From: Rhodohalobacter sp. 614A
GTDB taxonomy: Bacteria; Bacteroidota; Rhodothermia; Balneolales; Balneolaceae
Length of the DNA: 64,000 nucleotides
Assembly: GCF_021462415.1 (NCBI RefSeq)
Contig: NZ_JAKEDS010000001.1
Span: forward strand, 1-64,000
Direction of reading: 5' to 3'
Shown here one piece after another: positions 7,937 through 24,523 of the stretch (position 1 is its first letter; each line of letters begins with the position of its first letter). Under the pieces are notes generated by a model. The model was not told where the DNA came from. It worked only from the letters and a program-made list of their open reading frames with translations, and did not search any database. The translations under genes and the position numbers were made by a program.

Positions 7937-7966
7937 CAAAAGATGCTTAGAATGTCTTGGTTACTC
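7937..7966 (-). promoter_or_regulatory. Conserved leader element of SusC1
   Basis: On the minus strand this segment reads GTAACCAAGACATT, a four-base gap, then GCATCTTTTG. The same order of blocks, ACC-A-ACATT-N4-GCATCTT, occurs in the leaders of SusC2 and SusC3. It lies between the predicted transcription start and the start codon, so it would be in the 5' untranslated RNA. A role in post-transcriptional control or regulator binding is inferred. Confidence 0.5.
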
Positions 7967-8017
7967 TCCTCTATAACTTTGGTAGATTTTAAAAAGTCTC
8001 TATTCGCACACGAACTA

Positions 8018-8048
8018 TTAAATTAGCGTTTGATGGAACTGATTTCAA
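8018..8048 (-). promoter_or_regulatory. Bacteroidota-type promoter of SusC1/SusD1
   Basis: On the minus strand the -33 element TTG (8046-8048, in AGTTGAAAT) is followed after exactly 20 bases by TAATTTAA (8018-8025), a match to the TAnnTTTG -7 consensus. Identical spacing is found upstream of SusC2 and SusC3, and an A/T tract precedes each. Transcription would begin near 8010, giving a leader of about 160 bases. Confidence 0.65.
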
Positions 8049-8448
8049 CTAATTTGCATTTTTTTTAATTGTTTTAAGGCCAACCATACGAACTTTATAC
8101 CCCAAGGTGCCTATTTATTCAGAGCTTAGGAAGCGCACCTAACTACTTTATTGGTAGTGAGCAACATTGTTCAGAGATGAGAAAAAAGTATACAAAAAAA
8201 TATATCCAGACATGCAGAGAAAACCGCTTTTTAACTAACCTTGGAATATAAAATTCATTTTACAACAACATGTATTCATTCAAAAGTTTGTTTTTTTGAT
8301 GAAATTGGAAACCATTTTTCAGATGAGGGTTACACCAAGTTGTGAAACCAATCGTTGTTAAAATCAACGCATATAAATGTTACGCACTTCTTTTTTTGAC
8401 AGCCAGGCATAGTTTGGTTCATCATTGCGAAAATGAATAGAAACTTAT
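8049..8448. other. Intergenic stretch without a recognised gene
   Basis: This AT-rich stretch lies between the SusC1 promoter and the end of the SGNH-lipoprotein gene. Only a small imperfect hairpin (CGTTG/CAACG near 8353-8369) stands out. No reading frame with coding character is seen on either strand. Confidence 0.5.
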
Positions 8449-9951
8449 TCAAAAATTATTAATGTATGTATTTCCCAGACGGTTGTTTACATCAATAAGC
8501 GGAATGGCAGATGAAAAATTACGATTGAGTGATTCGATAAATAGATTAGCTAAAAGCGCCTGCCCTTTTGAATTCAGACTATATCCATCCGCAGAAATAA
8601 TTCCCCGGGAATCAAAATTCAAAGAGTAGAAAACGCCATCATAACTAATTAAGCCTTCACCCACATCATCAATCAGTTTCTCGAAATCGATCAAATGAAC
8701 ACGAGAATTTGAATCCACCAATCCACGAATAATACTATTAAATTCATTTCGGCGATTCGATATAATCTGAGCTTCTGTCTCAGTAATTACATATTGATCC
8801 GAGATAGGAGTTATAGTCCCGAAAAAAGTATCTGTCTCCATAGATTCCTGATGAGCAATTTCAGCATTGTACAAAAAGTAATCATTAACACGCATTTGGC
8901 GATATTTGGGGATTACCACTCCATCCGGAGTTTGGGCATCCGGAAGGTATTCATCAATAATAACCTTTGCCCGGAACGTATTCCCACCATCTATATCAAA
9001 CACAATCAGGCTCCTCGCTTCGGTATAATCTACAGTTTGATTATATGACCTGACATCTACATTAAACTGCCAATAATAACCCCAATAGGGATTAGTGTTA
9101 TCTTCATCCGTAATTACCAACTTACCAAGTTCTTGCTCTGTGAAATGCCACGGGAGTGTATTAAAGTAGGGAAGCTTGAAGGGATCGGGAATGGTAAACA
9201 AAAACAATTCCGCTTCTGATTCTGATAATATTCTTTCCACAGCATTAGAAAGAGATTGTTCTGCAATGGAAAGAGGGGTTAAATCACTATGTTGAATATG
9301 ATTGGCCGAAGGGTTTTCCTCTCCGCTTGCTCCGGAAAAAGCATAATTAAAAATATCTGCAAAGCCGGATTCCAACATAAAAATAGTGGGATTCTTTGAT
9401 AGAGCAACATCAAGCAGGCTTTGATTGCTGGGCCATTCAGTAAATCTTTGGAAATAGATATTTTCTGAAACAGCACTTGCATTATCTATTTGAAAGGATT
9501 TAATACCGGGCAAACTAAAATTGTTTTCGCCGGATACACTCCCGGAAAATGGATGAATCTCTTCTCCCTCGGTTGGCATACGAGCGGGCCATTGAATTTC
9601 GGGGGAATGGTACTGCAATTGATATTTGCCGGGTACACCAGAAAATTGGCCAGATGCTTCGATATTATAACCATTTTCACTTTCGATGGATGCATTGGAA
9701 TAGATATCTATATTTAATTCTTCTCTAAAAAGCTGACCAATCTGGGCAGGATAAGCATTCATCTGCGAGACATTATAAAGTGCCCCATCCATAAATCCTG
9801 CTGAAGCAGATCCGCCTACAATTGTAAAACTATCAATATTTATATTTCCCAGCTGTGCCTCAGGTTCTTCGGGTGCATTTGGAAATTCATAGGAACAACC
9901 AAAAAGAATCAACAAAAAGACAAATACTATACTCTTTTTTGAGCCATTCAT
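8449..9951 (-). CDS. SGNH/GDSL-fold lipoprotein with degenerate catalytic blocks
   Basis: This is a lipoprotein of 500 residues, with a signal peptide ending LILFGC and the lipidated Cys at 19. Block I reads VGGSASAGFMDGALY (45-59), like the GGS-x-x-AG-x-DGALY block of Bacteroidota SGNH lipoproteins. Block III, normally GNND, reads GFAD (196-199). Block V, normally DGxH, reads DGYS (455-458). The Ser is kept, but the block III Asn and the catalytic His seem lost, so esterase activity is doubtful. The start is ATG 9951, two bases after the TonB-receptor stop; a GTG at 9957 would overlap it. The tight coupling suggests it works with that receptor, perhaps as a substrate-binding cap. That role is inferred. 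Confidence 0.75.
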   Translation of the reverse strand: MNGSKKSIVFVFLLILFGCSYEFPNAPEEPEAQLGNINIDSFTIVGGSASAGFMDGALYNVSQMNAYPAQIGQLFREELNIDIYSNASIESENGYNIEASGQFSGVPGKYQLQYHSPEIQWPARMPTEGEEIHPFSGSVSGENNFSLPGIKSFQIDNASAVSENIYFQRFTEWPSNQSLLDVALSKNPTIFMLESGFADIFNYAFSGASGEENPSANHIQHSDLTPLSIAEQSLSNAVERILSESEAELFLFTIPDPFKLPYFNTLPWHFTEQELGKLVITDEDNTNPYWGYYWQFNVDVRSYNQTVDYTEARSLIVFDIDGGNTFRAKVIIDEYLPDAQTPDGVVIPKYRQMRVNDYFLYNAEIAHQESMETDTFFGTITPISDQYVITETEAQIISNRRNEFNSIIRGLVDSNSRVHLIDFEKLIDDVGEGLISYDGVFYSLNFDSRGIISADGYSLNSKGQALLANLFIESLNRNFSSAIPLIDVNNRLGNTYINNF

Positions 9952-9953
9952 AA

Positions 9954-12863
9954 TCACAAACTTTTTGGATTAAATGTAAACGTGGCAAATAAAATACTGC
10001 CGATTGATGGCCCACCATACATATTATAGTACTCTCCCACACCAAAATTAGTAATACCTACCTTCAGAGAGCTTTTAAGGGAAGGGATACGCGCATTAAC
10101 CTGAAAATCAAAATGACCATAGTTATCTATTGGTCCGTCCATAAACGAGCTTTCCCAGAAAAATTTTGTTCGGTATCGGTAAACCATTTTAAAACCAACA
10201 TTGGGGGTAATTGATCTGTGCCCCCATTCGAAATTCATCTTGAACGGTGGTGTATTGAAACCGGGGGTAATGGGATCATTCGAGCTCTGGATAAGTTTCG
10301 CATATGATGCATTTAAGCCCGCCATAAATCCACCGGATGAATAATCGATATTGAACGATGCACCCTGCACAATTAATTGATCCTCTGCATTACTGTATAC
10401 ATAATACCGATCATTTTCGAGGCTGTTATTTATTTGCCCTGCGGCTACAAATAAGTCCTCAGAGGGACTCGTCCGCGTTTTCATGACACGTGTAACACCG
10501 ATAAAATTATTGTAGAAACTGACATAATAGTTAAGATCAAAATAGAACTGTGGTGTAAACAGATGTCTGTAGCCAGCTTCTAATGTATTTACTACTTCGG
10601 GCTTTATTTCCGTTAGTTGATTCTCCCCAATAATTCCATCTTCCAATATGGAAAGATGCTTCAATTCTGCCTGGTTCCTGTTGTAGTATTCAGGACTGGT
10701 AGCTGTACTGTTTAAATCTGCATTTACTGCTTCTCTAAAATTTTGGATTGCATCCAGGCTTATTGAATTTCCCTGAAGATCATATTGATCAACATTTTCA
10801 GATAATCCGCCGATCAGGCGAACATCTCCCAAATCGTTATTAATAAATTGTTCTCTTACCCCCGGATAGCGGAATCCATGCTGATAGGATAGATTAAAAT
10901 AATGCTTGTCATTTAAATTATAATTGAAAGCAACTTGTGGACTGACTCTCGGTTTAAAATTCTCATTCTTATCAATCCGTAGCGAGGAGCTTACTGTTAG
11001 ATGGTTATCAAGAAATTTATTTTCTGCGGTTATAAAACCTCCAAATTCATAATTGGTGATTTTGTTGGAGCTTGTGTCTGGAAAAATAGTGCCGTACGAT
11101 TCAAGATCGTAAAACCGAAAATTCCCCCCGATTTGCATCGCTGTTTCCGGTATCAGGTTCTCTACATCATAGGTAGATTCTACATAATAAAGGCTTGAAT
11201 TGTCCTGAAAAGCCACGCCGTCTTCCCCAACCGTTTCAATCAGTTGGTCTACTTTTTCCTCAAATTCAGGTGTTCCCGGCTCAAACCGCGCCTGTATATT
11301 TTTATCTAATGACAATGTGACGCCACTATCTGCAAATCCCCTCGCTATAGCCAAATCTCCTTTACGGACTCCAAAAACAGGGACTCCACTTTCAAAAGCA
11401 ATTCGAAAATCTCTGTACCAATCCTCATCCGCTTTAGCATCTTGCAAAAGTCTTTGGGCCAGGTAGGAAACATCGAACGAATTCCCCGAATTTTGCCAGG
11501 TTGAGTACGCTTTTACATTCAGTTTATCCAGCTCAAATTGGGCAATGGCTTGATACATACTGAACCCATCCAGCCGAATCCTGCTGTCTCCAGTATAGAG
11601 TGAATGTGTGTATCCATACTTTCCATCCAATTTTATTTGATAAGAAGGGTTAATTTTATACTGAAGGGATGTTGCAAGTTTTGTGGTGGAGATGTCATAA
11701 TCCACAAGGTTATTTTCTTGATAGCCTGTACGGGTTACGGGTCCATAATCGGCCTCCGGAAGAATAACAACCCCCGACCTTACCTCAATCAAATCTTCAT
11801 CAATATAAACCTCCTCATAAACAAAGTTTTCATCCCCATACGTGTTTACACCATTATAACCCGGCTGATCTACTCGCCGGTCATGGATTCCCCCGGTTCC
11901 AATATTATCATAATTTTTTGCCTGCCAGTCTGTTCCGCTTGTTATAGAACCTGTAACTTTAAAAGCAAATTTATCCGAAAATGCTTTTGCATAGCGGGCC
12001 TGAACATCCAACATTCCATTTCCTTCAGCGGCATAAAAAGTATCCCCGCCTACATCCAAATTATTTACACCGGCTTTTGTCTCTACAGAAAATCCCTCGG
12101 TATAAAACGGATCACGGCTTGTCATTAGCATCACTCCGTTCAGTGCACTTGATCCATATTGAGTAGACGCCGGACCCGGCATGATTTCTACAGAAGCCAC
12201 ATCCAGATCAATGAGTCCCATTAAATTTCCGACCGGGAAATTCAAACCGGGTGCACGGTTGTCAACTCCATCGGTTAACTGAAGAAATCGTTTGTTTGCA
12301 CTGGAATTAAAACCTCTGGTATTTACGGACTGCATTGTCATACTTTGTGTTGCAACGTCTACTTCACGAACTGTAGAAACCAGATCAAAAACATCAAAAG
12401 AGGCTAATTGCTGTACGTCTACCGTACTTATTTTGTAAATCGTCTCGGTTTCTTCCAACTCCTCTTCAGACACCAGTTCGGCCGTTACGACAATATCTTC
12501 GCCAGAAATACTTGTAGGATTCAATTCCACATTCATATTCTGTCCTTCTTCACGGTTGTTAATAATAATATCTCTGTTTTCATACGAAATATGGCTAAAG
12601 CGCAGACGAAAAGGATATGAATAGTTAAACGTGAATCTGAATGAACCGTCTCTATTTGTAGAGGTACCGATATTTCGGTTATCAAGATGAGGGTTCTCCA
12701 CCGGCAATACCTGGATGGCTACATCTCCTATTTCTTTTCCATTCAATTCATTAACAACCGTTCCAGAAATATGAACAGACATATTCTGAGCAAAGGCAGC
12801 AGTCATACTGAAACTAAATAAAAGGAGTAGAGTAATTTTTTTCACAAATTGGTTAACTGCCAT
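9954..12863 (-). CDS. TonB-dependent outer-membrane receptor (not SusC type)
   Basis: The product is 969 residues. A signal peptide ends TAAFAQ near 26, a carboxypeptidase-regulatory-like domain covers about 30-120, and a plug follows with NTRGFNSS, RFLQLTDGVDNR and STQYGSSALNGV. The rest is a 22-strand-type barrel. It differs from the neighbouring SusC proteins by its shorter length and the absence of a SusD partner. Instead it is flanked by a small lipoprotein upstream (60-base gap, same strand) and a degenerate SGNH lipoprotein downstream (2-base gap). The three genes probably form one operon. The ligand is unknown; siderophore, metal complex and organic nutrient are all possible. Confidence 0.88.
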   Translation of the reverse strand: MAVNQFVKKITLLLLFSFSMTAAFAQNMSVHISGTVVNELNGKEIGDVAIQVLPVENPHLDNRNIGTSTNRDGSFRFTFNYSYPFRLRFSHISYENRDIIINNREEGQNMNVELNPTSISGEDIVVTAELVSEEELEETETIYKISTVDVQQLASFDVFDLVSTVREVDVATQSMTMQSVNTRGFNSSANKRFLQLTDGVDNRAPGLNFPVGNLMGLIDLDVASVEIMPGPASTQYGSSALNGVMLMTSRDPFYTEGFSVETKAGVNNLDVGGDTFYAAEGNGMLDVQARYAKAFSDKFAFKVTGSITSGTDWQAKNYDNIGTGGIHDRRVDQPGYNGVNTYGDENFVYEEVYIDEDLIEVRSGVVILPEADYGPVTRTGYQENNLVDYDISTTKLATSLQYKINPSYQIKLDGKYGYTHSLYTGDSRIRLDGFSMYQAIAQFELDKLNVKAYSTWQNSGNSFDVSYLAQRLLQDAKADEDWYRDFRIAFESGVPVFGVRKGDLAIARGFADSGVTLSLDKNIQARFEPGTPEFEEKVDQLIETVGEDGVAFQDNSSLYYVESTYDVENLIPETAMQIGGNFRFYDLESYGTIFPDTSSNKITNYEFGGFITAENKFLDNHLTVSSSLRIDKNENFKPRVSPQVAFNYNLNDKHYFNLSYQHGFRYPGVREQFINNDLGDVRLIGGLSENVDQYDLQGNSISLDAIQNFREAVNADLNSTATSPEYYNRNQAELKHLSILEDGIIGENQLTEIKPEVVNTLEAGYRHLFTPQFYFDLNYYVSFYNNFIGVTRVMKTRTSPSEDLFVAAGQINNSLENDRYYVYSNAEDQLIVQGASFNIDYSSGGFMAGLNASYAKLIQSSNDPITPGFNTPPFKMNFEWGHRSITPNVGFKMVYRYRTKFFWESSFMDGPIDNYGHFDFQVNARIPSLKSSLKVGITNFGVGEYYNMYGGPSIGSILFATFTFNPKSL

Positions 12864-12922
12864 TAAAGTACTGTTAAACTCAGTTCAAGTAATCATTTGC
12901 ACTGATTGCTAAAATGAGATAT

Positions 12923-13411
12923 TTACAATGGAATAGGCCTAATTTTAGCCGGGTAATTTGAAGAAGTTTTTATATGAACTTTCGTTGAGTCTACTCGCAT
13001 AAATTGAAGTTTGCCTAAAGCGTACACTAAATCCGGATTTAAGATTTTATAGGTATGGTCATGCTCCATCATCAACTGTTCCTCTTTGTTAATGTCATGC
13101 AGATACGTAGCGAGTAAATAGCCGATATTTAATGAAGGAAATGGGTTTGTGTTGTCCCTTTGGCTTTGTTGAGCACCTCTTGTAATTCTTGATGCGGGTA
13201 GCGTAAGCTTCTGCTCATTTACTTCTTCAAAAGCTTTTACATGACTGAATCTCACCCCGTCAATTTCTATCCAGTCCCCCTCTTTCAGATTTTTTACATT
13301 TAAAAAGTCAATTTCAACAGCAGCATAATCTTGGCCCTGCTGAATACAACTTGCTGTAACGACAAAAAAAATGATTGCAATACAGATATGTGGAATATTT
13401 TTTCTAAGCAT
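12923..13411 (-). CDS. Small putative lipoprotein of unknown function
   Basis: The frame is open from 13474, but ATG 13411 fits best. It gives about 162 residues beginning MLRKNIPH, with a hydrophobic segment ending VVTASC, a plausible lipobox. The mature part shows a beta-rich segment (EGDWIEIDGVRFSHV) and no family I recognise. It is first in a probable operon with the TonB receptor and the SGNH-type lipoprotein. A candidate promoter, TTG (13472-13474), 21 bases, then TATTTGTT (13443-13450), lies just upstream, which also favours the shorter protein. Function unknown; surface or periplasmic location inferred. Confidence 0.6.
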   Translation of the reverse strand: MLRKNIPHICIAIIFFVVTASCIQQGQDYAAVEIDFLNVKNLKEGDWIEIDGVRFSHVKAFEEVNEQKLTLPASRITRGAQQSQRDNTNPFPSLNIGYLLATYLHDINKEEQLMMEHDHTYKILNPDLVYALGKLQFMRVDSTKVHIKTSSNYPAKIRPIPL

Positions 13412-13707: not shown

Positions 13708-13743
13708 TATAACTCTCAGAGCTAATTTTTAGAAAATATACTC

Positions 13744-15489
13744 TTAATTATTGAGTGCTTTTTTGCCAAGTGATACAGGTGAAGGAATTCCCCCGTTTTT
13801 AACAGGCAGTAAATAGTCTCCCTGTTTTTTAGCTTTGGAATTTGCGACTCGCAAATTAACAGCGCTCGATCCAAACGCAGTTTCAGCTAAGTTTTTCCAG
13901 CTGTTGTCGCCGGAAGCCGATCCTGTCTGGCCGGCAAAATTTGGACCTCCAAATGTATAATTATCCAGCCCAAGAATTTCCAGCTCACTTCCGGGAACCG
14001 GGAACATCGTTGCGGTTCCTTCCTGGAGCATATCGTGACGTCTCATAAAAAACCACTGAATTCCAACACCACCTAACATATCCAATTCAACAGAGTATTC
14101 TCTTAACAAAGCCCACTGGAATTCGGCAAGACTTTCACTTCCGTCCATAAAATGGCCGCCGGAAAGACTATTTTGTCCAATATATCCAAGCTGTACAGCC
14201 GGTAACTGGAATCCATCAAGATCTGTCAAACCTGTACCAGCAGGTGAATCATTCAATGTCTGAGCTGCTGCACTTGCACTTCCACTCATAAGCTGAGCTT
14301 CTGCTCGCAGGTAATCCACCTCACTGGATGTCATAAATATGATTTTATATTGTGAGGGCCACCAGTCACTATTAGCGAACATTCGAGCACTAAAGTAATT
14401 CGTGAACAGGTTAGCATTCCTTGTTGGATTAAGATACCCGGGATTAGTCGTGTATTTGAAGTAGTCAATACGCGGATCATCTGTAACTGCAGGAGGATAT
14501 GACGCCTCACTTGCACTTGCATTTTCAGCAGGGTAAATGACCGGATAGGATGGATCCAGCATATGAGGAATTTTAACATCAGTCGGATTATATCCCGCCC
14601 CTGTATCAAAAGTACCCGTTACTACAAAGTTCAACCAGTCAACAAAATCGTTAGTATACTCGCCAGATGAACCAATGTTTGACGCAGAAAACGTGTTGAT
14701 GGAGGACTGAGAATTTGGCCCGCCCAATCCGGCTTCGGCATAAGCAAGAATACGGCCCCAATCGAGAGATGCAGCTTCGCTGGCTGTTCTGGCCTCGCCG
14801 GCAGCAATTCTTGCTGCTATGGAATTTGCGATATCCAGAAACTCAGCTTGTGTCCATGAATCTGCCGGGTTCGGCATTGAGTTGAAAACAAATGTTGATG
14901 ATCCACTTGCCAAACTGATCGCTTGATCAATATCGCTCAGAGCGCCGTCAATTAATACAGTGTAAGGCTGGAATTCAGCTTCATCTGTAGTAGCGTCGAA
15001 GTTCTCATCCAAAAAATATGACTGATCATAAATCATACCCAGATATCCTCTTGAAAGGCCACGAAGGAAATAAGCCTGGGCACGGATGTCATCCGACAAC
15101 TCTTCATTTGCAATGAACAAATTTGCAGTTGCTATTGCTGAGTTAAATCCACCAAAGTAAACAGAAATAGCCGTACTTGCGGAGTACGATGTGGTATTAT
15201 CCAACCTTAATCTGGGCTCTTCGGAAAAGTCCCAATAATTGTTAAAGGCATTCGTGCCAGTTGACTGATCAGCAAGATTGTGAATGTGTACTCCCCAGTC
15301 GCTCACCATTGCCGTGCTTGCATCGAAAAACCCACCGGCCAAAAGTTTAACCTGGTTTGCTTCATCACTTTCCACAGCTTCTGTGGTGGGGTTATTTAAG
15401 TTATCTACCGATAGATCAGCACAACTCGAGAGTGCGAGTAACCCCGAGACCATCAGAACGAATAAATACTTGAGTTTTGAATTATTCAT
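13744..15489 (-). CDS. SusD/RagB-family outer-membrane lipoprotein (SusD2)
   Basis: This lipoprotein has about 581 residues, with a signal peptide ending LALSSC and an ADLSVDNLNNPTTEAV opening typical of SusD. It has a helical TPR-like N-terminal half and a long variable domain rich in Ala and Ser. It is larger than SusD1 and SusD3 and belongs to a different SusD subgroup. The start is placed at ATG 15489, 21 bases after the SusC2 stop, by analogy with the other two pairs. ATG 15501 (four residues longer) is also possible. It presumably forms a lidded complex with SusC2; the ligand is unknown. Confidence 0.88.
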   Translation of the reverse strand: MNNSKLKYLFVLMVSGLLALSSCADLSVDNLNNPTTEAVESDEANQVKLLAGGFFDASTAMVSDWGVHIHNLADQSTGTNAFNNYWDFSEEPRLRLDNTTSYSASTAISVYFGGFNSAIATANLFIANEELSDDIRAQAYFLRGLSRGYLGMIYDQSYFLDENFDATTDEAEFQPYTVLIDGALSDIDQAISLASGSSTFVFNSMPNPADSWTQAEFLDIANSIAARIAAGEARTASEAASLDWGRILAYAEAGLGGPNSQSSINTFSASNIGSSGEYTNDFVDWLNFVVTGTFDTGAGYNPTDVKIPHMLDPSYPVIYPAENASASEASYPPAVTDDPRIDYFKYTTNPGYLNPTRNANLFTNYFSARMFANSDWWPSQYKIIFMTSSEVDYLRAEAQLMSGSASAAAQTLNDSPAGTGLTDLDGFQLPAVQLGYIGQNSLSGGHFMDGSESLAEFQWALLREYSVELDMLGGVGIQWFFMRRHDMLQEGTATMFPVPGSELEILGLDNYTFGGPNFAGQTGSASGDNSWKNLAETAFGSSAVNLRVANSKAKKQGDYLLPVKNGGIPSPVSLGKKALNN

Positions 15490-15510
15490 AGTGTTATACA
15501 TTTAATTTGT

Positions 15511-18500
15511 TTAGAATCTTACTTGTACAGAAGCACTGTATGTTCTGAAGTTTGGATATGCAAACTCATCTATCCTGAAGTTTGTAGAGTTTGATCTCAG
15601 AGCAACTTCAGGATCGTAACCTGTGTATTCCGTGAATGTGAGCAAGTTTCTTCCTACAACGGATACTTTAATATCACGCAAATACTCTCCTAATGATCCC
15701 AGTGTTTGGTTTGTGAAAGTATAAGAGAGTGACAGTTCCCGAAGCTTCACAAATGAACCATCTTCTACGAAATGGCTTACCGCTTCGGATCCATTATACA
15801 GACCATCTATGGCAAGCAGATATTGCGGATCGTAACCTTCCTTTGTATAGTCTTCAAGGTCTTGGTGGGTGTTACGATTATACAGCAGTTCACGTGTATA
15901 ATTATAAACTTTGCCCCCCTCGGACCAATCCCAAACCATAAATAATCCCAAATTCTTGTAGTTAAAATTACCGGACAGTCCAAGCTGGAAGTCAGGTTGG
16001 GTTGAGCCAATATTAACCACTTGAGGATCACCATTTTCGTCAACCAGATACATAGGACGTTCGAGTTCAGTTCCCTGATTCTCAGTAAGAACAACGTGGC
16101 CAAGACTATTCACTGTAAAATCAGCCGGGCTATAACCACCAGGAATGTTTACAACCGTTCCGTCTACTACTGTCAGTTCATCAAGGGACGAGATGAATTT
16201 GTTTCCATACATCGCACCGTATTCCACACCTTCTTCAAATCGGAACAGATCGATAGCAGCGCCTTCGTCGCCTCCAACCCCTCTGGTAAATGGAGCTATA
16301 CCACCCAGATCTGTTACAACTTGTGAAGTTGTTGAGAATGACAAGTTAAAACCGGCCTGTAAGTCCCGGGTATTAACCAGATTTCCCGATAAGCCAAGTT
16401 CAAGGGTTTTATTCTCAATCTCACCAACATTCTGCCATTGATGTGAAAATGGAGATGTACCCGTAAGTGGTGCCAGTAAATAATCATTGGTAATGTTTGC
16501 AAGTGCGTAATTAGCTACGAAATTGTACTTACCAAGGAAAGCAACATCAACACCCAACTCGAGTTCAGCCACTACAGATGGCTTAATCTCTGCATTTCCA
16601 AGAACATCTGGCAGAAGTACAGTACTTCCGGCCTCGTACGTTTCATACTGAGCTTCAAATGGAGGTCGGTTCCCCGAGGTACCATAGGAAGCCCTGAGCT
16701 TTAACTCATCAATATTGTCAATCTCAATGTCTTCTGAGACACGATAAGCAAGTGACCCCCGGTAGTAGACATTGTATCTCTCATCTTCACCAAATGCAGA
16801 TGACCCATCGCTTCTGACCATCCCACCTACAATAATTTTGTCTCGATAATCAAATGTAGCATCAAGAATAAGATTTTCTACCCTTTCTTCCTCAACGAGA
16901 TTGCCAATATTAAATGTGGATGCATCAAGAGCTCCAAAGCTTCGAATTCCACTTACAGAATAGTTATATCCTGAAAAATTATATCGCTCATACTCTCTGT
17001 CTTCGTAGAGATATTTACCGATAAGGTTGATATTGAAATCGTCAAGTTGAAAGTTACTCGCAGCCCACAACTCCGTAATGGCAGTTCTTTGGTTAATATC
17101 TGTTCTTCCCTCATAACCATTGTTATATGCCTGACTCGGGGTCGGTGTTTGATAACCTACAGGAGTTGATACTGTATTCAACTGATAACGCTGATCAATT
17201 GACTGCCGGGCATTTAATGATAGCCAATCTGCTACCTGGTAAGAAAGGTTCAGCCCAACAATATATCGCTCACGATTGATGTCATCCTGGAAGTTCTCTG
17301 CCACGTAAAGTGGATTTTGTTCATTACTTCCCAGACTATAACCTGTCGGATCGTTTGTGTAGGTTCCATCAGCATTTCGTTCTGTAAAATCGATGGCTGG
17401 CGGTGCAGAAAGTGCAGAGTAGAAAAAGTTCGATCCCTGCCCCTGTTCGCTAATATCAGGATATTCTGTATTTACATACGAACCACTGAAAGCGAGCTTG
17501 AATTTCTCATCATATAAATAATCAGCATTGAGCCTTACTGACTGCCTGTTGTAATCATTAAGGTTTTTAACGATACCACTTTGTGTCATGTCCTCAAATG
17601 ATAAGAAATAGTTAAAATTACCTGAGGAGTTGGCAACATTTATATAGTTTGTATTGTAAGGCTGCCCAGTGTATATGGCATCCGTGTTATTGTAAGTTAC
17701 AGGGTAGTCGTTGTCGAAAACTCTGTCCTCGTCAAACGTACCATAACCAGGCCACGATTCAACATATTTCCCATCAGACGTCAAGACAGCATCATTAACC
17801 CAGGGATGTTTATCAGTAGTTGGAAAATCTTTCGCAATTTCAGAAAATCCATATTCAGTGCGAACCGTAAAAGTTGGCTTATCGATACTTCTGCTGGCTC
17901 TTTTTGTAATAATCTGAATTACACCATTTCCTGCAAGTGATCCATACAGGGATGATCCGGCCGCGCCTTTTACAATCTCAATGCTTTCAACGTCCTGCAT
18001 ATTAATATCTGAAAGGCTTCCATCTGTAATTACACCATCAACAATAATCAGGGGACTCTGGTCACCGTTTATTGATGTTGATCCTCTCAACCGAATAGAG
18101 GCAGCAACAGAAGGGTCACCCGAGGCCTTAACGATTGTTACTCCAGGTACTTTAGCCTGAAGTGCCGACCCTACATCGGGGGCTGGAACCTCTTGCAGGC
18201 TTCTTTCACCAACTTTGGAAACTGAAAAACCGAGCTTGGTTGTTTGAGTTCCTGAACCCACACCAGTTACGACCACTTCTTCAAGACCAAGAACATCTTG
18301 TTCAAGAGAAACGTCATGCGTGATGGAAGAGTTACCCACCTGAATTTGAGAAGAATAGCTTTTGTACCCAATATAAGTGACGGTAATATTATATGTACCT
18401 TCTGGTACATTTGGGATTTCGTATTCACCATCGATATCAGTAGAGGCACCCAGTTGCAAGTCCTCTATTATAACATTAACACCAGGGAGTTCTTCACCGG

Positions 18501-18600
18501 TCCTGGAGTCTGTTACAGTACCCGATACACTACCCTGAGCAAACGCAGAAGTTGAGTATATAAAGGCACATATTACTAATGTAAGTAGCTTATAGTTCAT
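15511..18600 (-). CDS. SusC/RagA-type TonB-dependent outer-membrane transporter (SusC2)
   Basis: The product is about 1029 residues. A signal peptide ends TSAFAQ (about 21), a carboxypeptidase-regulatory-like domain covers about 24-105, and a plug contains EEVVVTGVGS, LIIVDGVITDG and GSSLYGSLAGNGVI. The barrel ends in SVQVRF. The start ATG at 18600 is preceded by GAGGTCT; the ATG at 18612 overlaps this ribosome binding site and is rejected. Its promoter and leader element match those of SusC1 and SusC3, so the three are probably controlled together. Plug and barrel sequences differ clearly from SusC1, suggesting a different substrate. Confidence 0.92.
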   Translation of the reverse strand: MNYKLLTLVICAFIYSTSAFAQGSVSGTVTDSRTGEELPGVNVIIEDLQLGASTDIDGEYEIPNVPEGTYNITVTYIGYKSYSSQIQVGNSSITHDVSLEQDVLGLEEVVVTGVGSGTQTTKLGFSVSKVGERSLQEVPAPDVGSALQAKVPGVTIVKASGDPSVAASIRLRGSTSINGDQSPLIIVDGVITDGSLSDINMQDVESIEIVKGAAGSSLYGSLAGNGVIQIITKRASRSIDKPTFTVRTEYGFSEIAKDFPTTDKHPWVNDAVLTSDGKYVESWPGYGTFDEDRVFDNDYPVTYNNTDAIYTGQPYNTNYINVANSSGNFNYFLSFEDMTQSGIVKNLNDYNRQSVRLNADYLYDEKFKLAFSGSYVNTEYPDISEQGQGSNFFYSALSAPPAIDFTERNADGTYTNDPTGYSLGSNEQNPLYVAENFQDDINRERYIVGLNLSYQVADWLSLNARQSIDQRYQLNTVSTPVGYQTPTPSQAYNNGYEGRTDINQRTAITELWAASNFQLDDFNINLIGKYLYEDREYERYNFSGYNYSVSGIRSFGALDASTFNIGNLVEEERVENLILDATFDYRDKIIVGGMVRSDGSSAFGEDERYNVYYRGSLAYRVSEDIEIDNIDELKLRASYGTSGNRPPFEAQYETYEAGSTVLLPDVLGNAEIKPSVVAELELGVDVAFLGKYNFVANYALANITNDYLLAPLTGTSPFSHQWQNVGEIENKTLELGLSGNLVNTRDLQAGFNLSFSTTSQVVTDLGGIAPFTRGVGGDEGAAIDLFRFEEGVEYGAMYGNKFISSLDELTVVDGTVVNIPGGYSPADFTVNSLGHVVLTENQGTELERPMYLVDENGDPQVVNIGSTQPDFQLGLSGNFNYKNLGLFMVWDWSEGGKVYNYTRELLYNRNTHQDLEDYTKEGYDPQYLLAIDGLYNGSEAVSHFVEDGSFVKLRELSLSYTFTNQTLGSLGEYLRDIKVSVVGRNLLTFTEYTGYDPEVALRSNSTNFRIDEFAYPNFRTYSASVQVRF

Positions 18601-18691
18601 ATAAGACCTCATTTGTTGTTGTTTTGGTTAAGTGATAAGTAAGTAGCTGTACTTAAGATGATTAATCTCAATTCTTAGAGAGTTGTCAAAC

Positions 18692-18758
18692 CACAAAGAT
18701 GCCTCTGAGAAGAGTTCCTGAGATTACAAAGATGCCAATAATGTTTTGGTTAATGTCC
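18692..18758 (-). promoter_or_regulatory. Conserved leader element of SusC2, with a repeated GCATCTTTGT block
   Basis: On the minus strand, CATTAACCAAAACATT is followed by GGCATCTTTGTAAT. A second copy of GGCATCTTTGTG follows about 35 bases downstream. The block TTAACCAAAACA also recurs immediately before the ribosome binding site. The first part matches the leaders of SusC1 and SusC3 in sequence and order. Confidence 0.5.
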
Positions 18759-18807
18759 TAGCTGGCGATACTTGTTGACTTCAAAGCCTTCATTCGTACT
18801 TGTCGGG

Positions 18808-18838
18808 TTAATTTAGTGTTTGAGAGAACCCATTTCAA
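18808..18838 (-). promoter_or_regulatory. Bacteroidota-type promoter of SusC2/SusD2
   Basis: On the minus strand, TTG (18836-18838, in TTAGTTGAAATGGG) is followed 20 bases later by TAAATTAA (18808-18815). It is preceded by AAAAAAATTTTCAAA. The stretch from TTAGTTGAAAT to the -7 box is nearly the same as at SusC1. The predicted leader is about 200 bases. Confidence 0.65.
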
Positions 18839-18849
18839 CTAATTTGAAA

Positions 18850-19460
18850 ATTTTTTTAAATAAGGGAGTCACATATCACTAAACACTTTAAGAGTAACAG
18901 TATATTTGTTAAAATTTTGGCGAAAAAAACCCTATAAACTTAAAAAAAATAGTTATTTTCAAAACCGCCTCGTTTTAAATTTTTTTACTTGAGTTTAATT
19001 TCAAAACAATTAATAGGCTGCTTATTGGCTAAAATATTTGAATTCCCCTTATCCCATCTTGCGCTAATACGTAAGAAAAAGCTTTTAAAAAAACGCTCCT
19101 TACTCTTGATTTAATAATGCATCTATCATTCTTAGTGAACTGACTACTTCCCTCTTATTTTTTGGCGAATAGTATATCCATTTATGTAAGAATATATTCT
19201 ATAAATGAGGAATACTTGTTCTCGTCCAAATCAGGTGGTAGAGACAACAATGTCGTCTTCATTTCAAAATTGATGATTGGCTTTGTGGTACCCGTAAGCG
19301 ATACTGTGTTATTGAGATAAGGCACATGCACGTCCACAAAGTATAAATAAGAATAGGAGAGCTATCTTCCGGATAAACAAAACTGGAGCTTACCCTTCAT
19401 TTTCAGATCATTAGATTACGGTTATATAAAAAGTATCACATCAGATTAGACCCATCTATA
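18850..19460. other. Long intergenic stretch without a recognised gene
   Basis: This stretch of about 600 AT-rich bases lies between the SusC2 promoter and the SusD3 terminator. I see no coding frame, tRNA or mobile-element end in it. Small palindromes such as AGACAAC/GTCGTCT near 19235-19251 are weak. Confidence 0.5.
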
Positions 19461-19496
19461 AAAAAAGCCTCTCTGAAATATTTTCAAAGAGGCTTT
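19461..19496 (-). terminator. Terminator of the SusC3/SusD3 operon
   Basis: The arms AAAGCCTCTCTGAAA and TTTCAAAGAGGCTTT pair with one mismatch around a short loop. On the minus strand the stem is followed by a run of T. It lies about 30 bases past the SusD3 stop. Confidence 0.82.
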
Positions 19497-19527
19497 ATCA
19501 GTTTAACTATTTGTAATAGCTGGTAAA

Positions 19528-21015
19528 TCAGTTTACATCCCACCATAAATGTCTGGAAGGAGTATCAGCTCCATTTGCAGAAATAGCCGCCTCATAATTT
19601 TCGGTGTTTATCTCCTCTTCTGAACTGGGATACATATGACGAACAGGTATTTCATTATCTGGACTAAGAGCACGATCATGTGGTTCTAATTCCGGATAAT
19701 CCAATCGTCTCCATTCTGCCCAAGCTTGGTATCCATTAGGGTAGAATGCAACCCATTTTTGATTACCAATTTTTTCTTTCCAATCTGCAGAACTGTATGC
19801 AACTTCAGGTTGTGAAATAAAGGCAGTGAAATTAGTTTCATTGTAAACTTCCCACTGCATCCACGACGCTTCGATAGCCGCGTTGTAATATTCTTCAGCA
19901 CTACCGGATATCCATCCTCGTTCTACAGCTTCAGCTTTTGCAAAATTTAATTCCGCAAGAGTGATAATCGGCAAAGGAGCATTTTGTATCCCAACTCCAG
20001 GACCACCTGCTCCGATTGCTGAACCGGGAAAGGAAATGGATGAGTTTAAGATATCTCCTGGGTTCGGCGAATCATAGTCCATACCAATAATTTCATCGAA
20101 TGTTACCTGACCGTCATTATTGCTTGCAACTGGTGCCGGATTCGCATATTTCAAAACACGATAATCATCCAAATTCAGCATGTAGTTAGCTAAAACATCT
20201 GAAATGGCATAATCAGTACGAGTTCTGAAACGACCATACCAAGGATTTTCGTTATCAGCATCAGCAAGATATGGATACATAACATCTTCGGTGATTAATC
20301 CATCATTCACTGCGTCGGTAAATTCCTGAGCAGCAACATCCGGGTTCACATCAGCCATTCTCAGGGCGATTCTAGCGCGTAAGCTGTTAGCAAACAGTGC
20401 CCATGAAGTCATTTCTCCATCAAAAACAATATCACCAGTTGGCCCAGGACCGCTATCCATCTGGCTCACTGCTTCATTTAATTCTTTCAGAAGATCCATA
20501 TAAATAGATTCTTGGGAATCATATGAGGGAGAAAAATTTTCTCTACCCTGTAACGCCTCAGAATAGGGAATGGCTCCCCATCTGTCTGTCATCATATGAT
20601 AAAAGTATACCTGTAAAATGCGGGCCGCAGCAATTTGATTGGCATTACTGCCTGCTGCTGCTGCTTCCTGCATTGTGTCTTCATTTGAATTTTCTTCAAT
20701 GATGGTTTGCAGGTCTTTAAGAGGACCATAGTACCAGGAGTTAAAATCAAAGGTAGCAGATGAATATCGGGAATCATCCTCGTATTGAGTTTCTGCCATC
20801 AGTTGAGTCCAGATCACCCCGGTTGTTGCTCCAACCACATCACTAATCTCACGTTCAGCATTGGTGAGCAATAAATCTGTCCTGACTTCTGAAGGGTTGT
20901 TAGAATCCACATTAAGGTTTCCGAAATCGTCGCATCCCATTACCAGGCCAAATACAGCCAGCATGAGTGCTGCTTTTTTTAGTAAAGTCATAACTTTATT
21001 TCTTTTAAATTTCAT
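19528..21015 (-). CDS. SusD-like outer-membrane lipoprotein (SusD3)
   Basis: This is a 495-residue lipoprotein of the SusD-like_2 type. The signal sequence ends LVMGC and is followed by the NLNVDSNNPSEV opening. Conserved segments include LNFAKAEAVERGW, WVAFYPNGYQAWAEWRRL (in parts) and the C-terminal NEIPVRHMYPSSEE, all shared in style with SusD1. ATG 21015 lies 17 bases after the SusC3 stop. The gene is intact even though its SusC partner carries a frameshift. If that shift is real, this lipoprotein would lack a full-length channel. Confidence 0.9.
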   Translation of the reverse strand: MKFKRNKVMTLLKKAALMLAVFGLVMGCDDFGNLNVDSNNPSEVRTDLLLTNAEREISDVVGATTGVIWTQLMAETQYEDDSRYSSATFDFNSWYYGPLKDLQTIIEENSNEDTMQEAAAAGSNANQIAAARILQVYFYHMMTDRWGAIPYSEALQGRENFSPSYDSQESIYMDLLKELNEAVSQMDSGPGPTGDIVFDGEMTSWALFANSLRARIALRMADVNPDVAAQEFTDAVNDGLITEDVMYPYLADADNENPWYGRFRTRTDYAISDVLANYMLNLDDYRVLKYANPAPVASNNDGQVTFDEIIGMDYDSPNPGDILNSSISFPGSAIGAGGPGVGIQNAPLPIITLAELNFAKAEAVERGWISGSAEEYYNAAIEASWMQWEVYNETNFTAFISQPEVAYSSADWKEKIGNQKWVAFYPNGYQAWAEWRRLDYPELEPHDRALSPDNEIPVRHMYPSSEEEINTENYEAAISANGADTPSRHLWWDVN

Positions 21016-21032
21016 AAGTATGCCAAATTGTT

Positions 21033-24000
21033 TTAGAAACCGACATTAACATTAAAACCTATCGACCGTGTGGCTGGCAGGCCTCCTCCAGTCCACCATC
21101 CGAATCCATTCCCATTGTTCTGAACAATAGACGGGTCATAGCCATCTTCACTTGCATAAAGCATAAGTGCATTCTGAATATCCAAAGCGATGCTGGCATT
21201 TATAATCGGAAGTGATTCAAGAACCTGCGAAGGAATATTATAGGTCAATTTCACCTCTCGAAGCTTTATAAAGCTCGCGTCCTTAAGCCACACTTCCTTA
21301 TTCTGATACTGTTCGTAGAAGAAGTCAGAGGCGTTTCTCAAATAAGCAACGTCATTTCCGTTTTCATCTACACCTTCCGTCAAAGCACCTCCTGAGTTAG
21401 ATGCTGCTTCATTTAGAGGAACAGAAGTAACCTGTTCTCCACTTGAATTCAACACAGGATCACGTACAGGATTTCCAAGTGTATTGTCTCCCACAGTACC
21501 TTGAGCTAAACCTGTTGATGTGGCCCACATCTGGTCTGCGGAATAAAATTTCCCGCCTTTCTGGAATTCAACAAATGTATTGAGAGAGAAGTTTTTATAG
21601 GTTACTCCTAAATTAAATCCACCTGTCCAGTCCGGAAGGATGTTGCCAATATCTTTATTAGATTCGAGAGCATAGGATCCGTCTTCATTCACAATTCGCT
21701 TTCCGGTTCCCTCATGAATGGAATATCCGCCATAGCCACCTGTGGTAACAACATTCCCCCACTCTTCATCTTCTGTAGCATATAATGCGGCACCAAAAGA
21801 CGCGCTCTCTAATATTCGGGTTGTAATTCCCTCAGCCAATTCATTCACTTCAGAATAACTTGATGCCCAGTTCAGGTCCAGCTCTACAACAAAATCCTGT
21901 GTTTGAACAGCTGTAGCGCCAAGAGCTACTTCCAATCCGGTAGTAGTAAATTTGCCTGCATTAACTATAGACTCATTAAATCCACTTGATCCGGGTACTG
22001 TTAACTCAAGAATTTCGTTCTTTCGAACAGAGTTATAGTAATTAACATCTGTTCTCAGACGTCCTCCTAAAAACCTCAAATCAATCCCAAATTCATAGTC
22101 TGAAGAAACAGAAGGTTCAATATTAGGATTATTCAAAGTGTTCGGAATAGATTGAGTCGGCTGACTGCCGTAAGGAGTCGAAGAGTCGTATGTTGTAAAC
22201 ACCTGATATGGATTCAGATCATTTCCAACCTGAGCAATAGAAGCACGTAATTTACCAAAGGTTAGAATATTTTGATTTCTGAAGACATCAAATTCAGTAA
22301 ACACCAAACTTCCAGACAAACCGTAATAAAGGTTTGAATTATCATCTGCGGGTAATGCTGAAGACCAGTCGTTCCGCAAAGATCCATCAATGTAAATTAA
22401 ATCTCTGAAACCAAATGTAGCAGTTCCGAAGAGACTATTCACCTGCTTCTCTTCATTATAGTTTGATACATCTGGTCGGTTTACAGACGCATCAATATTG
22501 AAGAAGTTTGGAGTTGAGAGCCCTCCAACAGTTTGCTGAATCAGCGCACTGTATTTCTCAGTACGAATATTACCTCCCAGATACCCGCTCAATGAAATAT
22601 CACCGAAGTCTTCTTCATAGCGTGCACCGGCCTCGTAATTTATTTCTCGCCGCGAACGTTGAGCTACGTAGTACCAATCCTCTTCCAGCCCTCCGGTTGC
22701 AATACGGTCTTCTGCGGTAAAGCTATATGTATCGAGATGCAATTTACCAGTCACCTCTATGTTGGAGCTGACATTATAGCTCATAGAATAATTCCCATAT
22801 ATGCGATCCCGATCATCATTCGAAACGTTTTCATTTGCTGCAAAAAACGGACTATCCCAATAAAGAGGAGTCGGATCACTTGGCGAACGAATATTCCAGG
22901 TCATTGGCAGGCCTTCACTTGTTCGGTAATCCCGAAGCTTATCTATATCTAATTGGCGCTGGAACCACTGATTGAAAGATTGCACCCCATTTCCCTGGAC
23001 AGCAGAATAACCAAGTGCCGGTCGGCCATCTGCACTCGTATTGACATAATTAAAGGAAATTCTTGAGGTGAATTTGTCGGAATGACTTAATGCTCCACTG
23101 AAATTAACACCATTTTTATCGAGCGTCGAATTCGGAAGCACACCACTTCGGTTTGTATTTAATAACCCTACACGATAAGAAGCATTGCTTGATCCCCCGG
23201 AAATTGAGAGGTTATTCGTCATTCTGACCCCTGTTTCAAAATAGTCTCGAACATTATCCGGATTGGCTTCTAGAGGAATTTCTGTCCCGTAATCATCCTG
23301 TCCATCACCAGTAAAGTCATGATGATACCATGACCACCAAGGACGATACATTTGCCCATCCATTCGGGGCCCCCCAGCTTTCATCAGCTGCGTAGTTTAA
23401 CCCTTTAACCATTTCACCGGTTTCAGGATCTTCCCAATCTACCAAGCTCTGAGAATATCCACCTGCATACTCATCCTGATAATCGGGGAGTATAGAAACA
23501 TTTTCAAAATATGTACTATTTGAAAAGTTTACCCGTATGGGTTGATTCTCGCCCATTTGCCCCTTTTTCGTTTCAATCAAAATAACACCGTCTGATGCAC
23601 GGTTTCCATACAATGCTGCTGCAGCGGCACCTTTCAGAACAGATACTGATTCAACATTATTCAAATTTAAATCTGATGCCAAGTTCCCTAGATCACGACC
23701 TGTAGTAGACCCACTTTGATTTACGACAAAAGAACTATTATCAATAGGAGTACCATCTACAACAAAAAGAGGTTGTCCGTCTGAAAGACCATTCGTACCA
23801 CGAATTCTAATTCGTTCTGAACCGCCAAGATTAGCGCCTGAACTACCCACAACCTGAATGCCGGCAACTTTCCCGGCAAGTGCACCAATAATGTTATCCT
23901 GGCTTACCTGAGCAATTCGGTCACCGTTAACTTCCTGGATAGAATATCCAAGCGAGCGTTCTTCCCGGTCCAAACCAAAAGCTGTTACAACAACATCATC

Positions 24001-24318
24001 CAATGCCGTAATGCTGGATGTTAGTTGGATATCAGCGGTTACATCTGTAGAGCCAACCTCAATTGTGGTTTCATACTGATTGTACCCTACAAAGGTAGCC
24101 ATCAGTGTATAGGTACCGGGTTCAACATCCGAAATTTCGAATTCACCATCGATATCGGTTGCATCCCCTTGTTGGGTTTGTTCAATAAATACATTTACAC
24201 CGGGAAGTGAATCTCCGGTATTTGCATCAGTAACTGTTCCTCGTACTGTCACCTGACCATATGCATCAAATGAAAAGAGAAAGGCAAATACTAATACAGA
24301 GAGTAGCTTATAATTCAT
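21033..24318 (-). pseudogene. SusC/RagA-type transporter (SusC3) interrupted by a single-base frameshift
   Basis: Read from ATG 24318, a signal peptide (ending DAYGQ), carboxypeptidase-regulatory-like domain and plug run in frame to about 23374, then go out of frame and stop at 23317. The rest of the plug and the whole barrel continue in the next frame down to 21033, ending VNVGF. The break is in the run GGGGGGCCCC (minus strand, 23366-23375). Removing one base restores the plug motif SWGPRMDG, which is standard for SusC proteins. The joined product would be about 1094 residues, normal for the family. All other parts look intact and unmutated, so either a sequencing error or a recent or phase-variable mutation is likely. 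Start: GAGGTCT precedes ATG 24318. Confidence 0.85.
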
Positions 24319-24411
24319 ACAAGACCTCGTTTGATGTTTTAGTTAAAGGAAATAGAAGGGCAACTCCTTAATAGAATGGAAATATTAAACTATGCAGAAT
24401 AGTCACTCTTT

Positions 24412-24442
24412 TAAGATGCCTAAAAATGTTTAGGTTAATGCC
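24412..24442 (-). promoter_or_regulatory. Conserved leader element of SusC3
   Basis: On the minus strand, GGCATTAACCTAAACATT is followed by a four-base gap and AGGCATCTTA. It has the same blocks in the same order as the SusC1 and SusC2 leaders, although the surrounding leader sequence has diverged. Confidence 0.5.
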
Positions 24443-24492
24443 CTCGAGAATTAATCCTTTTTTTTGGATAATCCTCTAATGTCCTGGTTGAA

Positions 24493-24523
24493 AGAAGGTA
24501 TGCTTTGATTAAATCCATTTCAA
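24493..24523 (-). promoter_or_regulatory. Bacteroidota-type promoter of SusC3/SusD3
   Basis: On the minus strand, TTG (24521-24523, in CAGTTGAAATGG) is followed 20 bases later by TACCTTCT (24493-24500). The -7 box is a weaker match than at SusC1 and SusC2, but the spacing and upstream A/T tract are the same. The remainder of 24524-24812 shows no gene. Confidence 0.55.

Follow-up and report, generated by a model that had tools for sequence, protein, structure and literature searches.

A leader module bound to one susCD locus of Rhodohalobacter sp. 614A and a candidate small RNA that may recognize it

SusC/SusD transporters largely decide which polymers are taken up by Bacteroidota and their relatives, and translational control of SusC by small RNAs (sRNAs) is known from gut Bacteroides. 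In the surface-protein inversion and shuffling systems of Bacteroides fragilis, one expression signal serves alternative surface proteins. The FopS sRNAs of Bacteroides thetaiotaomicron are multicopy paralogues with a common R1 sequence (12-15 per genome), which target susC mRNAs by base pairing at their start region (PMC11697453). The sRNA GibS of the same species has two seeds and pairs around the start codon, and DonS-type cis-antisense RNAs are divergently encoded to their susC target at its own locus (PMC7366714, PMC11697453).

In Rhodohalobacter sp. 614A, three susC genes of one array on contig C1 have a common leader module, and an sRNA candidate on contig C2 is complementary to their start regions. 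As in the FopS sRNAs, an unpaired 5′ part is joined to a terminator hairpin (for the candidate by predicted fold), and pairing with susC start regions is predicted, at ranks 1-3 of 143. Unlike FopS with its 12-15 copies, the candidate was found in one copy; further, its main seed lies in the hairpin loop, its targets have a common locus-bound leader, and its gene is situated beside a LytTR two-component operon (PMC11697453). In an Rfam scan up to E 1 the candidate did not match FopS, in a release which may not include that family. GibS, too, has two seeds and pairs around the start codon; of the two predicted seeds of the candidate, the loop seed fits all three targets and the tail seed is strong in susC2 only. 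The GibS targets described there are not susC genes, and GibS is conserved in its own genus, whereas the candidate is not (PMC7366714, PMC11697453). RNA control of susC homologues, proposed for the candidate, is likewise reported for DonS, which differs in being encoded at its target locus (same sources). If functional, the candidate would act like FopS and GibS, a likeness of working that need not mean family membership. With the B. fragilis systems the locus has in common one kind of expression signal with alternative surface proteins, but here each copy has its own promoter.

The window, i.e., the whole 64-kb stretch of DNA analysed, contains the following features:

8018..8048, minus strand: susC1 promoter; TTG at 8048-8046, 20 nt, TAATTTAA at 8025-8018
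7940..7963, minus strand: susC1 leader block, TAACCAAGACATT-CTAA-GCATCTT
7833..7889, minus strand: susC1 start block, comprising an A-rich stretch, GAGGTCT, the ATG at 7849 and codons 2-5; 52.2 bits
4706..7861, minus strand: susC1, open reading frame counted from the first ATG
18808..18838, minus strand: susC2 promoter; TTG at 18838-18836, 20 nt, TAAATTAA at 18815-18808
18729..18752, minus strand: susC2 leader block, TAACCAAAACATT-ATTG-GCATCTT; extended by the bases that follow, it reads GGCATCTTTGTA, the exact complement of the tail of the sRNA candidate
18692..18702, minus strand: second GCATCTTTGTG copy in the susC2 leader
18584..18640, minus strand: susC2 start block; ATG at 18600; 61.6 bits
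15511..18612, minus strand: susC2, open reading frame counted from the first ATG
24493..24523, minus strand: susC3 promoter; TTG at 24523-24521, 20 nt, TACCTTCT at 24500-24493
24413..24437, minus strand: susC3 leader block, TAACCTAAACATT-TTTAG-GCATCTT
24302..24358, minus strand: susC3 start block; ATG at 24318, ACG where the others have their first ATG; 50.6 bits
21033..24318, minus strand: susC3, split into overlapping open reading frames 23317-24318 and 21033-23384
24813..25994, minus strand: alanine racemase, which in relatives delimits the variable susCD array on one side
1783..3087, plus strand: ABC1/UbiB-like kinase, which in relatives delimits the array on the other side
1100-1777: TetR-type protein (TetR_C_23), adjoining the susCD array

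A preliminary description had pointed to a promoter and leader common to these three genes, and as an observation it held up as a whole: all parts described are present, on the minus strand, and far beyond chance. TTG, exactly 20 bases and a TA box are found in 3/3 leaders, with GTTGAAAT containing the TTG. The blocks ACC-A-ACATT and GCATCTT take the form TAACC-A-ACATT-(4/4/5 nt)-GCATCTT at 7963-7940, 18752-18729 and 24437-24413, which amounts to three matches in the window compared to a mean of 0 in 100 dinucleotide shuffles. The same GAGGTCT ribosome site precedes all three susC genes, and GAGGTCTT(A/G)TATG is present at the three starts (three matches; mean 0 in 100 shuffles). Counted from an assumed transcription start 7 nt past the TA box, the leaders of susC1, susC2 and susC3 measure 162, 201 and 168 nt, in keeping with the 160-200 nt given before; the second GCATCTTTGTG copy in the susC2 leader is present at 18702-18692, and the transporters have indeed diverged, with 26% identity between the susC1 and susC2 proteins. 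The consensus of Bacteroidota housekeeping promoters is TTG, about 20 nt and TAnnTTTG. The leaders carry TTG-N20-T and a TA-rich box, the full TAnnTTTG is not reached, and the promoters are putative. The start codon of the susC genes is most likely the second ATG, not the first, because susC3 has ACG at the first and, in the relative G015a, an in-frame TAG separates the two.

Recurrence in front of further SusC-type genes of the genome, whose absence the preliminary description had named as a refutation, was not found: in a weight-matrix scan of upstream regions, the module precedes 3/37 susC genes of this genome, and 0/34 of the others exceeded the reverse-strand controls. Over 89 genomes, models R1 and R2 (the latter from promoter to ACATT) gave no sign of a genome-wide regulon either; the 13 training leaders of R2, from 10 genomes, scored 44-81 bits and nothing else exceeded 22.3 bits. 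Since only three of the 37 genes have the module, a genome-wide susC regulon is unsupported; it was rejected on the scan and both models, and with it a shared regulator in this sense. The 13 copies instead occupy a single locus in the genus (including Rhodohalobacter), in most cases close to an alanine racemase gene. By these searches, the module is confined to one locus in the genus among the genomes covered. Its presence is also independent of transporter lineage, as sequence comparison indicates. A susC1 paralogue elsewhere with 73% identity is without the leader (score 29; the five best of 50 shuffles 38-49), G027a and G026 have a leader score of 198 with proteins only 26% identical, and susC2 and G002c have a leader score of 23, i.e., shuffle level, with proteins 64% identical. 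Module presence on the SusC tree requires seven changes, forced by starred branches. Against this independence counts that the orthologues G026 and G027b group together in the leader tree. Exact GCATCTT occurs in 3/3 window leaders and 0/11 others. Nevertheless, to call it an invention of this genome is too strong and the block is partly ancestral, because susC2 and G010/G021 have ATCTTTGT in common.

The sRNA candidate was first revealed by a weak match to model R1 (E 0.015). It is an intergenic element of about 103 nt with a hairpin and a T-run, at about C2:637419-637521 on the plus strand (L180:7420-7522). Its predicted fold comprises an open 18-nt tail, the hairpin (z −3.2; 0/200 shuffles) and the T-run, with the tail 96% and the loop seed 85% unpaired. 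No plus-strand terminator was reported here by a terminator scan that takes loops of 3-8 nt, the candidate loop being far larger. BLAST in its own genome yielded a single full-length copy, the remaining matches being short. No relatives were detected by BLAST in 28 genomes of the genus or in a search via the neighbouring kinase, and the 13-nt core was, targets aside, found nowhere but here. TTCRTCAC is located upstream of the kinase in 3/5 kinase relatives inspected, and no sRNA was seen there by reading. On these results, the candidate cannot account for conservation of the start block elsewhere.

The suggestion of a small RNA acting on the leaders is strengthened: this one candidate, encoded in the genome itself, is complementary to the start blocks of the three mRNAs and, clearly in susC2 only, to the GCATCTT block. 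The loop (TCATATAAGACCTCA, preceded by AGTAGCTT) matches each susC at the ribosome site/start codon and at codons 4-6. The 5′ tail (TACAAAGATGCC) complements the GCATCTT region, strongly in susC2 only; this predicted seed pairs upstream, in the leader. Predicted loop energies are −29.2, −34.0 and −35.2 kcal/mol for susC1, susC2 and susC3 (ranks 3, 2 and 1 of the 143 own start regions), the next being −21.2. In 286.6 kb of own DNA, both strands, the site stands apart with −34.8/−34.4, the runner-up having −24.5; scored were the 400 longest complements out of 1265 (pre-filter: 8-nt perfect complements). Perfect complements to the sRNA measure 15, 15 and 9 nt in the tagged genes and at most 9 nt in the 34 other susC genes; from the counts of the 286.6-kb scan, chance is estimated to give a genome about two perfect complements of 15 nt. 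A 12-nt match of the tail type arises by chance in 131/2000 shuffled flanks and 11/360 real pieces. By tail pairing susC1 comes at rank 27 and susC3 at rank 4, but the best susC3 site is not GCATCTT. With the whole sRNA against −200..+40, susC3 is first and susC2 second of 37, and susC1 falls outside the first 12. A search for long antisense of the entire start block returned solely the gene itself.

Adjoining the candidate are a kinase-kinase-LytTR operon (Pfam: two His_kinase, Response_reg+LytTR) and a susCD pair that has 73-74% identity with susCD1; the start region of this C2 susC paralogue matches the candidate poorly. LytTR-regulated promoters have two ~9-bp direct repeats with a period of ~20-22 bp. 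TTCRTCACA occurs five times in 16 kb (0.40 expected; 0/200 shuffles), always upstream of the sRNA candidate, the kinase operon or the untagged susC paralogue. TTCATCACA is found at L180 7354/7374 and TTCRTCACA at 7550/7570, both with period 20, and one exact copy at 11001. At the candidate gene, the TTCRTCACA direct repeats adjoin a promoter-like TTG-N20-TA element.

We consider it somewhat better than an even bet that a joint explanation applies, namely a locus-bound expression module which is also the address tag for a trans-acting sRNA from C2. The module would combine a promoter, presumably of Bacteroidota type, with a leader largely devoid of structure and a strong ribosome-binding/start region, and would serve whichever SusC/SusD pair sits at the locus; in this genome, we infer, it doubles as the tag. 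In the three mRNAs, the sRNA loop would pair at the Shine-Dalgarno/start codon and at codons 4-6. The tail would bind GGCATCTTTGTA in susC2 and pair less strongly in the other two, and ribosome loading would be blocked. Upon firing of the two-component system, the untagged SusCD and the sRNA would be made and the three tagged susC genes shut off. That this system swaps the transporter set by RNA, inducing one SusCD together with an sRNA which reads the leader tag and not the protein family, is a tentative proposal, possible rather than probable.

Selection on the untranslated block, as proposed before, is borne out in part: between G010 and G006 the leader shows 78-96% identity per 50-nt bin over 300 nt, as high as the coding sequence (78-96%), and past the promoter identity falls to 48-70%, near the shuffle baseline of 58-61%. 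In the orthologues susC2 and G005b (proteins 82% identical), however, the mid-leader is at baseline (50-58%), so only promoter and start block are kept throughout. Recent copying among array members (duplication or gene conversion) in the absence of selection would fit three genes in one array and the susC2/susC1 leader score of 111, but is quite improbable given that leaders of this genome are not mutual nearest (susC2 scores 165 with G026, 159 with G027a and 66 with susC3), that the spacers between blocks have diverged, and that the G010/G006 leader is as well kept as the coding sequence. Hardly more credible is a DNA-binding regulator acting on the conserved promoter region, e.g., the adjoining TetR-type protein: the promoter with its surroundings is the second best conserved part, but reading the promoters revealed no palindrome shared by them, and the start block, the other conserved part, lies well downstream and reaches into the codons. 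Almost nothing speaks for the RNA element of the preliminary description, a structured switch or attenuator. RNAalifold on 14 leaders gave a weak start-codon hairpin, 0/8 predicted pairs changed on both sides, and the susC3 leader fold has a z of −3.5, but the other 13/14 range from −1.06 to +1.14 (shorter or shifted leaders were folded where the automatic start was misplaced, in G005b, G025, G006 and G021, or doubtful, in G023a), and Rfam matches in the window are two tRNAs only. A short leader peptide, considered in susC2, was dropped as no common frame was seen by reading.

A weightier alternative, though on balance unlikely, is that the module is a strong promoter with a good ribosome site and nothing else, the C2 element having no effect on the three genes and being either a coincidental match or the degenerate remnant of an inverted susC start. 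Relatives with no detectable sRNA also conserve the start block, the minus strand of the C2 element reads GAGGTCTTATATGATAAAGGAAGCTACT and resembles a susC start, and the tail match by itself is not rare. On the other hand, both seeds, predicted unpaired, lie within one hairpin transcript-like unit, a plain leader relic would have the GCATCTT-like stretch on the opposite side of the start, and promoter-like elements with TTCRTCACA repeats stand directly before the element.

If the joint explanation of expression module and address tag is true, the sRNA aims at a leader which keeps its place as the transporters behind it are replaced. Any SusC behind the tag would be silenced, even the induced transporter's own closest paralogue. 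The induced transporter, being untagged, would escape; transporters would be exchangeable at the locus with regulation unchanged. This would be a case from a halophilic member of the Balneolaceae, apparently wired to LytTR, and would show how exchangeable transporters can be coordinated by simple means. With or without the sRNA, the history of the leader is separate from that of the transporters, a clear case of an expression site outliving its cargo.

All motif parts that the preliminary description had claimed in front of the three susC genes are present, namely the promoter (TTG-N20-TA), the ACC-A-ACATT/GCATCTT block and the GAGGTCT ribosome site. They are here termed the leader module, with the start block comprising the GAGGTCT site, ATG and first codons:

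4706-7861, minus strand: susC1, leader (W1) in front
15511-18612, minus strand: susC2, leader (W2) in front
21033-24318, minus strand: susC3, two ORFs, leader (W3) in front

TAACC-A-ACATT-gap-GCATCTT and GAGGTCTT(A/G)TATG each match three times in the 64-kb window, versus a mean of 0 in 100 shuffles. The susC start codon is likely the second ATG, since W3 reads ACG at the first and the leader of a relative (G015a) has ATGAGGTCTTAG ahead of its ATG; GAGG is placed as the Shine-Dalgarno sequence accordingly. The ORFs of susC3 (23317-24318 and 21033-23384, minus) overlap in different frames, pointing to a frameshift, genomic or of the assembly. In the SusD position behind susC2, the gene at 13744-15501 (minus) has no Pfam or NCBIfam match at E 0.001, and its homologues also follow susC2-type genes in relatives. 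Two genes lacking the leader module lie between susCD1 and susCD2 (8449-12863, minus): one, of 969 aa and with a Plug domain, resembles a TonB-dependent receptor, and the other is an ORF of 500 aa that matches no Pfam family. Both have relatives at the same place in genomes G002 and G005. At the array border (1100-3087, plus), a TetR-type regulator gene is followed by an ABC1/UbiB-like kinase gene. Two tRNA genes (34658-34730, minus; 52929-53000, plus) are the window's only Rfam matches at gathering score.

The genome contains 37 susC genes: of 56 TIGR04056 matches, 36 were above cut-off, the two pieces of the split susC3 were counted as one gene, and 18 weaker matches were left out. A weight-matrix scan covering 600 nt ahead of each gene and its first 150 nt gave scores of 28.3, 30.1 and 28.6 for susC1 to susC3; the maximum of the other 34 was 13.2, with reverse-strand controls reaching 14.2. 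The leader module marks no genome-wide susC regulon here: none of the 34 others rises above controls, and the check for further occurrences named in the preliminary description came out negative. The exact string TAACC-A-ACATT-GGCATCTT was found in one of 28 genus genomes, namely this one, with two occurrences.

As a BLAST query (E 0.01), the W2 leader hit 19 of 92 genomes, several matches being short. The start-block pattern matched 14 times in 13 of 89 genomes, and 13 of these matches open a susC-like ORF; 14 leaders, each in front of a susC, were aligned. A model from promoter to ACATT (R2; 119 positions, trained on 13 leaders) recovers its training leaders (10 genomes) at 44-81 bits over the 89 genomes, beyond which no match exceeds 22.3 bits. 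Within the genus, the leader module appears bound to one locus, with the order vitamin/queuosine-precursor transporter, ABC1/UbiB-like kinase, variable susCD operons, alanine racemase and M20 peptidase in relatives. Among the 10 R2 genomes, the fetched piece includes the racemase gene in 8 and lacks it in G010 and G021; leader G023a has the start block without an R2 match.

Judging from these genomes, the start block appears to reach further than the rest of the module. With an E limit of 0.1, its model (R1) has a match in 61 of the 89 genomes. Of the 30 loci returned, 20 were inspected: 19 precede a susC, two of these judged on incomplete evidence where contigs end, the exception being L144 in G022. 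In 19 wider regions of other genomes, a susC ORF is found at the match in 17 and is missing in two (contig C8 of G057, contig C2 of G031). In the start-block alignment, 15 of 16 rows have leucine at codon 5, encoded by CTA or TTA every time; in the 34 other susC, these two make up 23.7% of 2764 leucine codons. Because the rows are related, this bias is taken as a hint that the nucleotide sequence is constrained. An orphan start block, ACCAAAACAACATAAGAGGTCATATATG (G022:C47:7829-7874; piece L104, about 1500 in L144), is followed by a 10-aa ORF, not by a susC. In G047, a susC start (L163 9548-10384) stays open for 279 aa in mid-contig and is possibly another broken array member.

Constraint on the untranslated block, as suggested earlier, is supported in part: leaders G010 and G006 are kept as well as coding sequence, with similarity stopping at the promoter, but W2 and G005b share promoter and start block only. 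A structured RNA element in the leader found no backing, since RNAalifold gave eight pairs, a weak start-codon hairpin, none with both sides changed. Fold z-scores range from −1.06 to +1.14 in 13 of 14 leaders (W3, −3.48), calculated from automatic start points which are misplaced for G005b, G025, G006 and G021 and doubtful for G023a.

Leader and transporter histories appear to differ.

Local-alignment scores of 250-nt leaders, with protein percentages
G027a/G026: leader 198; proteins 26%
W2/G026: leader 165; proteins 28%
W2/G027a: leader 159; proteins 57%
W2/W1: leader 111; proteins 26%
G027b/G026: leader 110; proteins 90%
W2/G005b: leader 47 (20 shuffles: mean 27, best 42); proteins 82%
W2/G002c: leader 23 (shuffles: mean 24, best 32); proteins 64%

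The nearest relative of susC1 in its own genome lies on another contig, C2 (73%; its SusD 74%), and the leader of the C2 paralogue scores 29 against W1, under the five best of 50 shuffles (38-49). On a SusC tree of 20 hand-chosen rows, in which only the C-terminal ORF stands for W3, seven changes are needed to explain leader presence, and starred branches force every one of them (average with shuffled labels, 6.4). Placing all three SusC of the window in a single clade is rejected (p-AU 1e-52); for W2, G027a and G026, whose leaders are closest, p-AU is 0.0076. The leader tree rejects a single clade of W2, G027a, G005b and G025 (p-AU 0.02), and its best topology groups G026 and G027b with weak support. 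As this tree is poorly resolved, the case for discordance is carried chiefly by three pairs (W1/C2 paralogue, W2/G005b, W2/G002c) and by sharing across SusC clades.

R1 has one further, weak match in the own genome (E 0.015; C2:637472-637502, minus). The opposite strand reads TATACAAAGATGCCC...GGCCTGATACCT...GGGGAGTAGCTTCCTTTATCATATAAGACCTCAAGGTATCAGGTCTTTTTTTT, a hairpin with a run of eight T behind it, and no ORF of 80 aa extends across the element. This small RNA candidate (about 103 nt; about C2:637419-637521, plus; L180:7420-7522) has a fold z of −3.2, with 0/200 shuffles as stable; a terminator scan covering loops of 3-8 nt did not list its hairpin. Exact complements of both TGAGGTCTTATATGA and AAGCTACTC lie within the loop. 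Perfect complements reach 15 nt for W1 and W2 and 9 nt for W3; in none of the other 34 susC do they exceed 9 nt. Since about two 15-nt complements per genome are expected by chance, an estimate based on how complement lengths fall off, length does not settle the matter by itself; the two putative seeds together with the predicted pairing energy do. Matches of at least 12 nt to the leaders occurred in 131 of 2000 shuffled flanks and 11 of 360 real 540-nt pieces.

Predicted pairing of the loop with 143 own start regions ranks W3 (−35.2 kcal/mol), W2 (−34.0) and W1 (−29.2) first to third, followed by −21.2; the C2 paralogue is tenth (−16.3). In 286.6 kb of own DNA (both strands), the loop target site stood apart among the 400 longest perfect complements scored, at −34.8/−34.4 versus −24.5 for the next. 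Tail pairing ranks W2 first (−19.4 kcal/mol), W3 fourth (−14.1, at GGGCATTAACC) and W1 27th (−11.1, at GCATCTTTTGTG). The tail is predicted to be 96% unpaired, the loop seed 85% and AGTAGCTT 43%. With the whole candidate against −200..+40 of the 37 susC, W3 ranks first, W2 second, and W1 is not in the first 12. Tail and loop seed do not stand in the order that an antisense copy of the leader would show. A small RNA, one option of the preliminary description, has a candidate on C2 with predicted pairing to three susC starts, but its tail match is strong for W2 only.

A short-chain dehydrogenase gene flanks the element on one side; on the other come two His_kinase genes, a gene for a response regulator with LytTR domain and then the susCD paralogue, which lacks the module. 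By reading, a promoter-like TTG, 20 nt, TAAGTAGA precedes the candidate and would begin the RNA close to its tail. The 16-kb piece L180 contains five TTCRTCACA (expected 0.40; reached in 0/200 shuffles):

7354, 7374: before the small RNA candidate
7550, 7570: before the kinase operon
11001: 97 nt ahead of the susC paralogue

The 64-kb window has one, matching chance expectation. Direct repeats of TTCRTCACA with period 20 lie at L180 7354-7600 and 10980-11009 in the kinase/LytTR/susCD island; such repeats, here putative sites, are bound by LytTR proteins. TTCRTCAC is also found ahead of the kinase in three of five relatives from other genera. Relatives of the first kinase occur in 7 of the 127 other genomes in the order, none of them within the genus, a distribution consistent with an acquired island.

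FopS sRNAs pair with susC mRNAs at the start region and so repress their translation (PMC11697453), GibS has two seeds and DonS is a cis-antisense RNA (both PMC7366714, PMC11697453), and PMC10994844 likewise describes antisense RNAs associated with PULs. Judged by its predicted pairing, the candidate would act like FopS and GibS. However, FopS is multicopy and the candidate lacks this feature, so it was not assigned to FopS. Literature searches found no report on the leader module or the candidate, which does not prove absence.

BLAST detected no homologues of the candidate in 28 genus genomes. Its antisense core CATAYAAGACCTC was found at 13 sites, spread over 10 of these genomes: 12 are targets and one is the candidate itself. 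The small RNA, if real, would therefore be a more recent user of a block that predates it.
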